Below are positions 45,367 to 56,858 of a stretch of DNA of 64,000 bases, piece after piece (within the stretch, counting starts at the first letter, position 1; each line of letters opens with the position of its first letter). Source of the DNA: an uncultured Verrucomicrobiales bacterium (lineage in GTDB: Bacteria > Verrucomicrobiota > Verrucomicrobiia > Verrucomicrobiales > Akkermansiaceae); contig CAJQKQ010000015.1 of the NCBI GenBank assembly GCA_905478925.1, positions 18,098 to 82,097 on the forward strand. Reading direction: 5' to 3'. The position numbers and the translations under genes are program-made. A model generated the notes under the pieces. The model was given only the letters and a program-made list of their open reading frames with translations. It had not been told where the DNA came from and ran no database searches.

Positions 45367-46212
45367 ATGTTTATCCAGCAACTCAGAGGCGAGCTTCGCA
45401 AGCTTTTCGCAAGACCCAGGACATGGATGGGCTACGGGGCTTTTCTGGCGATGGAGGCGGTGATCCTTGCGGTTTACAAACTCGAGGCGAGCCAACGCCA
45501 CATGCGCGGCTTGGTTGAGAGGAACGGGCTGGAATTCAGCACCTACTACAGTTCCCTCACCATCACCTTCACGATCATGCTGCTGAGCATGTTCCTGCTC
45601 GGTTCGATCTATTTTGCGCTGGTCGCGGGGGACATCGTCGCGAAGGAAAACGAGGACGGAAATCTGCGTATGGTCTTCGCCAGACCGATCAGCCGGCTGC
45701 GGCTGCTGCTGGTGAAATACACGGCCATCTGCCTCTATACCTTCAGCTTCGTGTTTTTCGTGGGCGTCAGCGGCTACGCGATGGCGGTCGCGGCGGTGGG
45801 CTGGGAGGGCGGATTGTTTGTCATGGAGCCGAAAATGAAGGTCTTCGCTGCCTATCCGGACTGGGGGCAGGGAGCATCCAGGCTGGCTCTCTCGGCGGGT
45901 GGGATCGGCATCAGCATGATCACGCTATCGTCCATCGCGTTCATGTTCTCGTGTTTCAAGATCAAGCCCGCCGCAGCGACAATCATCACCCTGACCATCC
46001 TGTTCGTGGACATGATCCTGCAGGGTTTCCCCTTCTTCAAACCCTACGAAAGCTACTTCATCACCTGGCGGATGAGCGCGTGGGTGTTCCTGATGGAACA
46101 GCACATCTCCTGGCCGAAAATCGTCGAAAGCTACGCCTTCCTGATGGGGCTCAACGCCTCACTGTTCACCATCGGCTGGCTGGCATTCCAGACCCGGGAT
46201 TTCAAGACGTAG
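45367..46212 (+). CDS. ABC-2 type transporter permease
   Basis: MFIQQLRGELRKLFARPRTWMGYGAF...VAGDIVAKENEDGNLRMVFARPISRLRLLLVKYTA. Confidence 0.85.
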   Translation: MFIQQLRGELRKLFARPRTWMGYGAFLAMEAVILAVYKLEASQRHMRGLVERNGLEFSTYYSSLTITFTIMLLSMFLLGSIYFALVAGDIVAKENEDGNLRMVFARPISRLRLLLVKYTAICLYTFSFVFFVGVSGYAMAVAAVGWEGGLFVMEPKMKVFAAYPDWGQGASRLALSAGGIGISMITLSSIAFMFSCFKIKPAAATIITLTILFVDMILQGFPFFKPYESYFITWRMSAWVFLMEQHISWPKIVESYAFLMGLNASLFTIGWLAFQTRDFKT

Positions 46213-46215
46213 CAT

Positions 46216-46373
46216 GCCGCCGGAGGCTCTGGACTGCTGCGGTTCTTATCCGCAGCTTTTGAGGGAAGATGTGTTTGAACGGTGTCGGCAGGTATCGACC
46301 AATCGCCCCGATGATCGCCGCTTCTCGTGAGAGCTAGGGATAAGAACCCCAGCAGTCCAAAAGCCTGCGGCGC
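46216..46373 (+). repeat. RAYT-associated palindromic repeat, copy E1
   Basis: GCCGCCGGAGGCTCTGGACTGCTGCGGTTCTTATCCGCAGC ... GATAAGAACCCCAGCAGTCCAAAAGCCTGCGGCGC; ends 1 nt before RAYT stop codon. Confidence 0.85.
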
Positions 46374-46931
46374 TCAGACTTCGAAGTCATCCTCGACATT
46401 CAGTCGATCCGTTTTGAATCGTTCAACGCTTTTTCGGAAACTCTCCGGCGCAGTTTGTTCAAACCAGCTCGCACTGCACCACGGGTACTCCGTCGCCACA
46501 TCCACCAGCCCATGTTTCACCGGATTTTCATTCACGTATTTGAGCCGCGCGAGGAGGGATGTCTGATGGGTGATGAGGCTCTCCCGAAAGTTCATCCAAA
46601 CCCTCCGCCCTTGAACTCCATCGATTTGATTGAGCTGGATCGCGGAGCTTCGGTGAAATTCACCAAGCCATTTGCGCAGAGTCTCACCGCTACCTTTGGG
46701 TGAATCTGCCAGGAAATGGTAGTGGTTGGAAAACACAGACCATGCGCGGAGATTCCAGCCGAATCTTTCCGCCGATTCCACAAGCAGCCCGGTGACAGCA
46801 CCGAGTTTCTCGTCCGTACCGAAAAGTCGTTCCCTGTGATACGTGGAGGCAGTCACAAAATAGACGCCCTCATTGAACAGCCAATGCGGTGGGGCGTGAG
46901 GCCACGGTGCCTTGCTCATGTGCCAATCCAA
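46374..46931 (-). mobile_element. REP-associated tyrosine transposase (RAYT, TnpA_REP / Y1_Tnp)
   Basis: FNEGVYFVTASTYHRERLF, WSVFSNHYHFLADSP (HUH), LLARLKYVNENPVKHGLVDVATEYPWCSASWF. Confidence 0.9.
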
Positions 46932-46951
46932 CCAGAACTGTCACGAATGGA

Positions 46952-47105
46952 AAGCTCTGCTTTTGGACTGCGGCGGTTCTTATCCGCAGCTTTCTGGGTG
47001 GATGTGTTTGGACGGAGATGGCAGGTAGCGACCAATCGCCCCGATGATCGCCGCTTCTCGTGAGAGCTGGGGATAAGAACCCCAGCAGTCCAGAGCCTGC
47101 GGCGC
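46952..47105 (+). repeat. RAYT-associated palindromic repeat, copy E2 (direct to E1)
   Basis: AGCTCTGCTTTTGGACTGCGGCGGTTCTTATCCGCAGC ... CGCTTCTCGTGAGAGCTGGGGATAAGAACCCCAGCAGTCCAGAGCCTGCGGCGC. Confidence 0.85.
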
Positions 47106-47112
47106 TAAAAGA

Positions 47113-48009
47113 CTATTTGCCCCAGGCTTGCATCAGCGCGGTGGCCATGTCGCTTGGCGTTTCAGCAACGGCGATGCCGCACTCGGCGAGGATCTTCTTC
47201 TTCGCTTCGGCGGTGTCATCCTCGCCGCCGACGATGGCACCGGCGTGGCCCATGCGGCGGCCCGGAGGCGCGGTCGCACCGGCGATGAATCCGGCGATGG
47301 GTTTCTTGCAGTTGTCCTTCGCCCAGCGCGCAGCTTCGGCTTCGGCGTTGCCACCGATTTCGCCTATCATGATGATCGCTTCGGTTTCGTCGTCGTCGTT
47401 GAACATTTTCAGCACGTCGAGATGGTTGGTGCCGTTGATCGGATCACCGCCGATGCCGACGCAGGTGCTCTGGCCGTAGCCCATTTGAGTGAGCTGGAAA
47501 ACGGCCTCGTAAGTAAGGGTTCCGGAGCGGGAGACAACACCAACGTTGCCGCGCTTGTGGATGTAGCCGGGAGCGATACCGATGCGGCAGCCGCCGTGGC
47601 TCTTGTCACCAAGACCCGGAGTGACGATGCCTGGGCAGTTGGGGCCGACAAGGCGGGATTTGCTGCCTTTGAGCGCTTCCTTGACCTTCATCATGTCCAT
47701 CACGGGGATGCCTTCGGTGATCGCAACGATCAACTCCACACCGGCGTCCATCGCCTCGAGGATCGCATCGGCTGCGAACGGAGGCGGCACGAAGATCGCG
47801 GAGGCGGTGGCACCGGTCTCGTTCACCGCCTGAGAGACGGTATCGAAGATCGGTACGGTGCCGGAGAATTTCTGTCCGCCCTTTCCGGGAGTGACCCCGG
47901 CAACGAGCTTGGTGCCGTAATCGAGCGAGAGCTGGGCGTGCTTGCCGCCGAAGCTGCCGGTGATGCCCTGCACAAGAATCTTGGTATTTTCGTCAATGAG
48001 AATGGCCAT
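47113..48009 (-). CDS. sucD: Succinate--CoA ligase subunit alpha
   Basis: [47 protein letters not shown]. Confidence 0.95.
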
Positions 48010-56705: not shown

Positions 56706-56858
56706 GCGCCGCAGGCTCTGGACTGCTGGGATTCTTCATTCCCAGCTCTCACGAGAAGCGTCGCCCATCGCAGCGATTGGTCGCTACCTGCCGACTGATT
56801 ACAAACACATCAACCCCGAAAGCTGCGGAACACCACAGCAGTCCAAAGCCTGCGGCGC
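56706..56858 (-). repeat. RAYT-associated palindromic repeat, copy E3 (inverted relative to E1/E2)
   Basis: GCGCCGCAGGCTCTGGACTGCTGGGATTCTTCATTCCCAGCTCTCACGAGAAGCG ... AGCAGTCCAAAGCCTGCGGCGC, matches reverse complement of E2. Confidence 0.85.

Follow-up and report, generated by a model that had tools for sequence, protein, structure and literature searches.

REP/RAYT systems are known mainly from repeats that carry a GTAG tag, and how RAYTs choose their targets and cut sites is an open question in the field. In E. coli and in group 3, these enzymes bind single-stranded DNA hairpins through a foot tag together with the stem or loop, and they cleave close by, at a dinucleotide that can depend on the sequence of the foot; by a cross-pairing rule, A3G4 of GTAG selects CT (PMC8266576). 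Five residues of the E. coli protein are reported to contact GTAG (PMC6006769). Systems without this tag have also been described. TIRtrons, or TIRYTs, comprise RAYT-like genes with non-GTAG flanking repeats, some belonging to moderately abundant families and some found in Acidobacteria (PMC3733652), and the TnpAY1 subclass 2.6 and class 3 include REPtron-like genes with atypical secondary structures devoid of GT[AG]G (PMC6006769).

The window we analyzed, a 64,000-nucleotide stretch of a genome from an uncultured Verrucomicrobiales bacterium (G000), contains a locus composed of familiar REPtron parts and set apart by its tag and by the clade of its RAYT. A Y1 transposase gene lies between two near-identical elements, E1 and E2, as the original prediction had it: they are 90% identical over 145 bp (E = 9e-45), directly repeated, and both oriented opposite to the RAYT gene (Table 1). 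E1 was also said to end where the RAYT stop codon begins, and this is exact, with the last base of E1 at 46373 and the stop codon reading TCA on the plus strand at 46374-46376. The stop codons of the neighboring genes fall within 8 bp of E1 and E2. The start that the two elements were thought to share, GCC..GGCTCTGGACTGC, is present in E1 and most genomic copies but not in E2, whose left arm is GGAAAGCTCTGCTTT instead of GCCGCCGGAGGCTCT. The outer arms at 46216-46227 and 46362-46373 (GCCGCCGGAGGC / GCCTGCGGCGC) are GC-rich near-palindromes; their equivalents at two other loci (L046 and L048) make small hairpins of their own and are possibly remains of a target palindrome.

Table 1. Coordinates of the RAYT gene, the REP dimers with their component hairpins, and adjacent genes in the window
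Feature	Position	Strand	Details
RAYT (Y1 HuH transposase)	46374..46931	-	ORF; NF047646 profile; 4er8 by sequence and fold; motifs
E1, 158-bp REP dimer	46216..46373	+	Adjoins RAYT stop codon
E1 REP-A	46232..46259	+	GACT 46232-46235; stem GCTGCGG/CCGCAGC; loop TTCTTAT; tail TTT 46257-46259; from sequence, consensus fold and clade-wide anatomy
E1 REP-B	46330..46357	-	GACT 46357-46354; stem GCTGGGG/CCCTAGC; loop TTCTTAT; tail TCT
E2, ~157-bp REP dimer	~46948..47105	+	RAYT upstream side; left outer arm degenerate
E2 REP-A	46966..46993	+	GACT 46966-46969; stem GCGGCGG/CCGCAGC (1 mismatch); tail TTT
E2 REP-B	47063..47090	-	GACT 47090-47087; stem GCTGGGG/CCCCAGC; tail TCT
E3, third element copy in window	56706..56858	-	
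ABC-2 permease gene	45367-46212		E1 starts 4 bp past its stop
sucD	47113-48009	-	E2 ends 8 bp short of sucD 3' end

The likely start codon of the RAYT gene is the ATG at 46919, giving the N terminus MSKAPWPHAP found in homologs, rather than the TTG at 46931, from which residues are numbered here. Against the NCBIfam model REP_Tyr_transpos (NF047646) the protein scores 77.2 bits, 3 bits below the curated cutoff of 80, and we therefore term it a divergent RAYT. All 23 members of set A2 match this model at E ≤ 0.001 (best 5.5e-27), and Pfam Y1_Tnp matches the window protein weakly. For the AlphaFold model (pLDDT 85), the top PDB fold match is the E. coli TnpAREP-REP complex (4er8, E = 4e-9), with IS200/IS605 transposases next in rank. 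Within this TnpAREP fold, the protein combines a HuH motif (N69-H70-Y71-H72, NHYH) with one catalytic tyrosine, assigned to Tyr132 of YVNENP. The profile score and the fold match thus uphold the identification as a RAYT that had been made from the sequence. The gene is under purifying selection, as indicated by a dN of 0.08 against a dS of 0.60 between the nearest unsaturated orthologs (G015 and G017). We also observed Y1_Tnp-like genes near contig ends of the window genome (L039, L040, L041, and L045; ~170-370 aa open), which may belong to a repeated IS-like family responsible for breaks in the assembly.

Searching the DNA of the window genome (3.8 Mb, 145 contigs) returned ~21 long element copies and several partial ones, and a covariance model made from 19 copies identified 24 distinct long copies. 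This number is far above chance, most of 78 related genomes have no copies, and Rfam contains no match to the window. With one close RAYT for ~24 elements, the window genome has the single-copy gene and dispersed flanking REPs of a REPtron. Each element runs from an outer arm through TGGACT, hairpin A (GCTGCGG-TTCTTAT-CCGCAGC), TTT, and a ~65-bp core to hairpin B, of the GCTGGGATTCTTTATTCCCAGC type, the second half repeating this order on the opposite strand. In the consensus fold, an outer stem encloses two separate hairpins placed side by side, and the nested arrangement originally described is not seen. From this fold, and from the A and B ends being consistently distinct in most copies, it follows that the element is built as a dimer: its two REPs are in inverted orientation, with tags outward and tails inward, an arrangement resembling a BIME or REPIN. 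The Y and Z REPs of E. coli BIMEs likewise differ (PMC8266576). The earlier description of the elements as longer than classical REPs is misleading, in that each consists of two REPs of ordinary size (~25 nt) plus the core.

The elements are, like REP/BIME (REPIN) families, inverted pairs of short hairpins that are extragenic (firmly checked for the copies in the window) and present in many copies, at a modest number of ~24 dimers. Gene-context calls based on ORF length are unreliable, with sucD itself miscalled, and we therefore make no genome-wide claim regarding a preference for 3' ends. With an average likeness of ~71%, the copies in the window genome give no evidence of recent movement there; we saw no excision or insertion events and found no empty site. 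Two copies (L012 and L013, on contigs C46 and C20 of G000) and the left side of a third (L015) sit within another palindrome (GGTGTGATTTTTTCGGTGGA...TCCACCGAAAAAATCACACC), as if larger hairpin elements carry, or are favored by, REP dimers.

Comparison with relatives connects the repeats to the gene. We selected 80 RAYT loci by protein similarity alone (46-78% identical), labeled as Verrucomicrobiota, Planctomycetota, Lentisphaerota, Acidobacteriota, Armatimonadota, and Hydrogenedentes, with the proviso that MAG labels can be wrong. Repeats bracket the RAYT at 67 of the 75 loci with enough flank, the best flanking pair being direct at 51 and inverted at 16, and eight loci have none; among control flank pairs taken 1.2 kb away, 0 of 52 were bracketed. 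This contrast supports the earlier proposal that the elements are likely RAYT substrates. When folded, the flanking repeats follow a common pattern though their cores and stems differ among relatives.

The feature common to these repeats is the tag at the hairpin foot, and it is not GTAG. To avoid picking a motif by eye, we ranked all 256 tetranucleotides at hairpin feet in an unbiased scan of the 80 loci. GAGT came first (162 hairpins at 55 loci, 3.2 expected) and GACT second (106 hairpins at 37 loci, 6.8 expected), with the complementary tails GAAA, CAAA, and AAAA in ranks 3-5. In the same scan GTAG, the REP tag (GTRG), was observed once against 4.4 expected, and CGTC, the tag of CGTC REPs, nine times against 9.9 expected. 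The original prediction, mostly right in its interpretation, suggested looking for GTAG/CTGG-type guide motifs and missed the main point, the non-GTAG tag. Plain motif counts agree: the density of TGGASTGC is 4.5 per kb up to 400 bp from the RAYT and 0.09 per kb beyond that distance, and neither GTAG (3.2 vs. 3.7 per kb) nor CGTC (13.0 vs. 12.1 per kb) is raised near clade RAYTs. The stem starts directly after GGAST in 84% of cases, compared with 8% in shuffles, and the sequence that follows includes 34 different stem arms, with a T[TC]T tail in 232 of 245. As a positive control, E. coli rayT showed six GTAG REPs, visible with bulged or imperfect stems, and GTAG was not ranked first; a scan for perfect stems is thus blind to bulged REPs.

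The full structure, GA[CG]T followed by a GC-starting stem and T[TC]T, is found at 79 of the 80 RAYT loci, compared with 3 of 80 control flanks. A search for further relatives (L126-L155, a few of which repeat the first set) found it in every clade member except two or three, and a later draw spread evenly over the phylum (18 new loci, 35-50% identity) in 16 of 18, against one control flank. By contrast, it is absent from all five distant RAYTs at 30-33% identity (L147, L148, L149, L154, and L155), which come from the same genus and order and showed no clear tag in a scan of these five loci. Under a strict test, the full motif is missing in clade members L108, L143, L152, L230, and L234. Members without TGGAST mostly retain GAST in another context (TTGAST in the sister pair L132/L134, GGGAGT in L130, and CCGGAGT in L133), which fits gene and tag changing together. 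In a 106-row tree, a branch with 100/100 support parts the GAST-flanked RAYTs from the distant ones.

We compared the GTAG-contact residues in 23 clade members aligned to the E. coli protein. Two of the five, W94 and E100 (as E/D), are kept, and the other three are altered: Q95 to H/M/F/Y, H101 to T/S, and R104 to T. Outside this set of 23, position 95 is Q or N in some clade members. Distant outgroup RAYTs also carry Thr at the R104 position, and that change alone therefore does not predict the tag. Judged from the alignment, the contact-residue changes agree with an altered tag, though they fall short of proof.

Taken as a whole, the locus probably represents a REPtron, in which a single-copy RAYT of the TnpAREP type recognizes GAST-tagged single-stranded hairpins of dispersed REP dimers. 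The RAYT would recognize a single-stranded REP hairpin with a GA[C/G]T foot (in the window, the GACT of TGGACT), a GC-starting stem, ~6-7 bp long and of variable sequence, and a TTT or TCT tail. Cleavage beside the hairpin, presumably through Tyr132, would then spread or maintain the REP dimers. By analogy, the GAST foot would serve as an address and possibly as a guide, in which case the cross-pairing rule predicts cleavage at AG for GACT and at AC for GAGT, versus CT.

This system shares with the E. coli REPtron (TnpAREP/RayT with GTAG REP/BIMEs; Bertels group 2, subclass 2.2) the HuH Y1 fold, a single-copy gene, inverted REP pairs, a foot tetranucleotide at the hairpin, and dispersed copies. 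It differs in the GA[C/G]T tag, in stems that are perfect rather than bulged, in a short 3' T-run tail, in the three altered contact positions, and in its HYH motif; the two proteins are ~20% identical in the fold alignment. TIRtrons resemble the clade in having RAYT-like genes between non-GTAG repeats, but the motif described for them, shared by many of their long TIRs, is GGGGWSAS rather than GGAST (PMC3733652); the two groups may overlap. Subclass 2.6 is mainly from Bacteroidetes and has NH[LIV]H and WQ, and class 3 has NHVH, Y....Q, and a CnGA foot (PMC6006769), whereas the clade has NHYH, W[HMFYNQ]N, and mostly Y[VT][NH]xN[PA]. Subclass 2.8 shares the NHYH motif and W[YH] with the clade but is confined to Cyanobacteria, with YIHYNP and canonical GT[AG]G REPs (PMC6006769). 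CGTC REPs are similar in that a tag other than GTAG marks the end of the hairpin and dimers are common, yet they lack a dedicated transposase (PMC3733652), and CGTC is not enriched around clade RAYTs. We found no mention of a GAST tag in the running text of open-access papers, and on this scope priority is not certain.

The position of E1 and E2 within 8 bp of their neighbors' stop codons, together with hairpins followed by a short T-run, is what one would expect if the elements served mainly as host RNA or DNA devices, such as bidirectional terminators or stabilizers of mRNA 3' ends, with the RAYT, which is under purifying selection, kept for another purpose. Such roles are compatible with the REPtron reading. 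As the main explanation we hold them to be very unlikely, since they leave unexplained why the tag, stem start, and tail recur across phyla beside RAYTs while the stems change.

The history of the locus bears on a second alternative, that E1, the RAYT, and E2 form an IS200/IS605-like transposon that moves as one unit and is delimited by E1 and E2. The order sucCD-E2-RAYT-E1 is common to the window genome, G015, and G017. This shared synteny indicates that the RAYT has stayed in place, and it does not support movement of the RAYT unit between genomic sites. The protein does have the fold of IS200/IS605 TnpA, the flanking copies are near-identical, and hairpins flank the gene in nearly every relative. 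IS200/IS605 elements, however, are mobile multi-copy units with distinct LE and RE and a Y..NQ motif, whereas here one RAYT accompanies ~24 elements in the genome, three species share the position of the unit, 3' of sucD, the motif is YVNENP and not the class 1 Y..NQ type (PMC6006769), and the flanks are direct repeats of a dimer without distinct left and right ends. We consider a transposon of this kind highly improbable.

Bracketing copies are closer within a species than to their positional counterparts, with identities in G017 of 0.97 within and 0.84-0.88 between species, and of 0.90 within G015. At the shared locus (L168, L176, and positions 46216-47105 of the window), the direct copies appear to evolve in concert in each species. 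Recombination or conversion between direct copies would be the simplest reading of these sequences.

The concern that the repeats might occur in genomes without the RAYT was mostly allayed, with a few exceptions. A close RAYT (at least 77% identity) is present in three genomes of the genus (G000, G015, and G017), each of which has at least nine elements and a bracketed RAYT. In the remaining 76 sampled genomes, elements without a close RAYT occur in G044, G008, and G004, the last with two diverged copies only; G049 and G058 give only weak hits, and the one in G049 adjoins that genome's own RAYT. Assembly completeness is 72% for G044 and 79% for G008. A RAYT search at looser thresholds found none in G044 and G004 and, in G008, a single 50%-identical RAYT with the variant tag TTGAST. 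In G044 and G008 (L184-L198), a longer palindromic MITE (TAGACCRTTTGCCAAAAGTCCGTGCGCAGATCCATR ... ACTCTACTTTGTTGTCAC...GCGCACGGACTTTTGGCAAACGGTCTA) encloses the REP dimer, almost always in one and the same position, and the element copies are 90-92% identical among themselves. This setting and likeness suggest that their spread there is more readily attributed to the transposase of the MITE itself. No empty site for the element-carrying MITE was found in a sample of 48 genomes that excludes G044, and no MITE without the element was found in G008. Least probable of all is that the elements in general are MITEs of another transposase and that the RAYT landed by chance between two of them, for although the G044 and G008 copies, so alike and with no close RAYT, sit inside such a palindrome (TAGACCRTTTGCCAAAAGTCCGTGCGC...), E1, E2, and most window-genome copies have no such coat, the RAYT is bracketed in G000, G015, and G017, and the GAST-RAYT link holds clade-wide with unrelated cores.

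Returning to the REPtron reading, we think it reasonably likely that this multi-phylum RAYT clade, with its own GA[C/G]T code, constitutes a third tagged REP superfamily, one that is non-GTAG and has a dedicated transposase, and that an IS608-style rule would give it a different cut dinucleotide (AG or AC). Natural variation of this kind, with the tag and the GTAG-contact residues changed together across a clade, would allow the guide model to be tested directly through comparisons or swaps of specificity. In addition, a GAST-hairpin-TTT structure beside an NHYH RAYT may provide a simple signature for annotating dispersed repeats in several understudied phyla.
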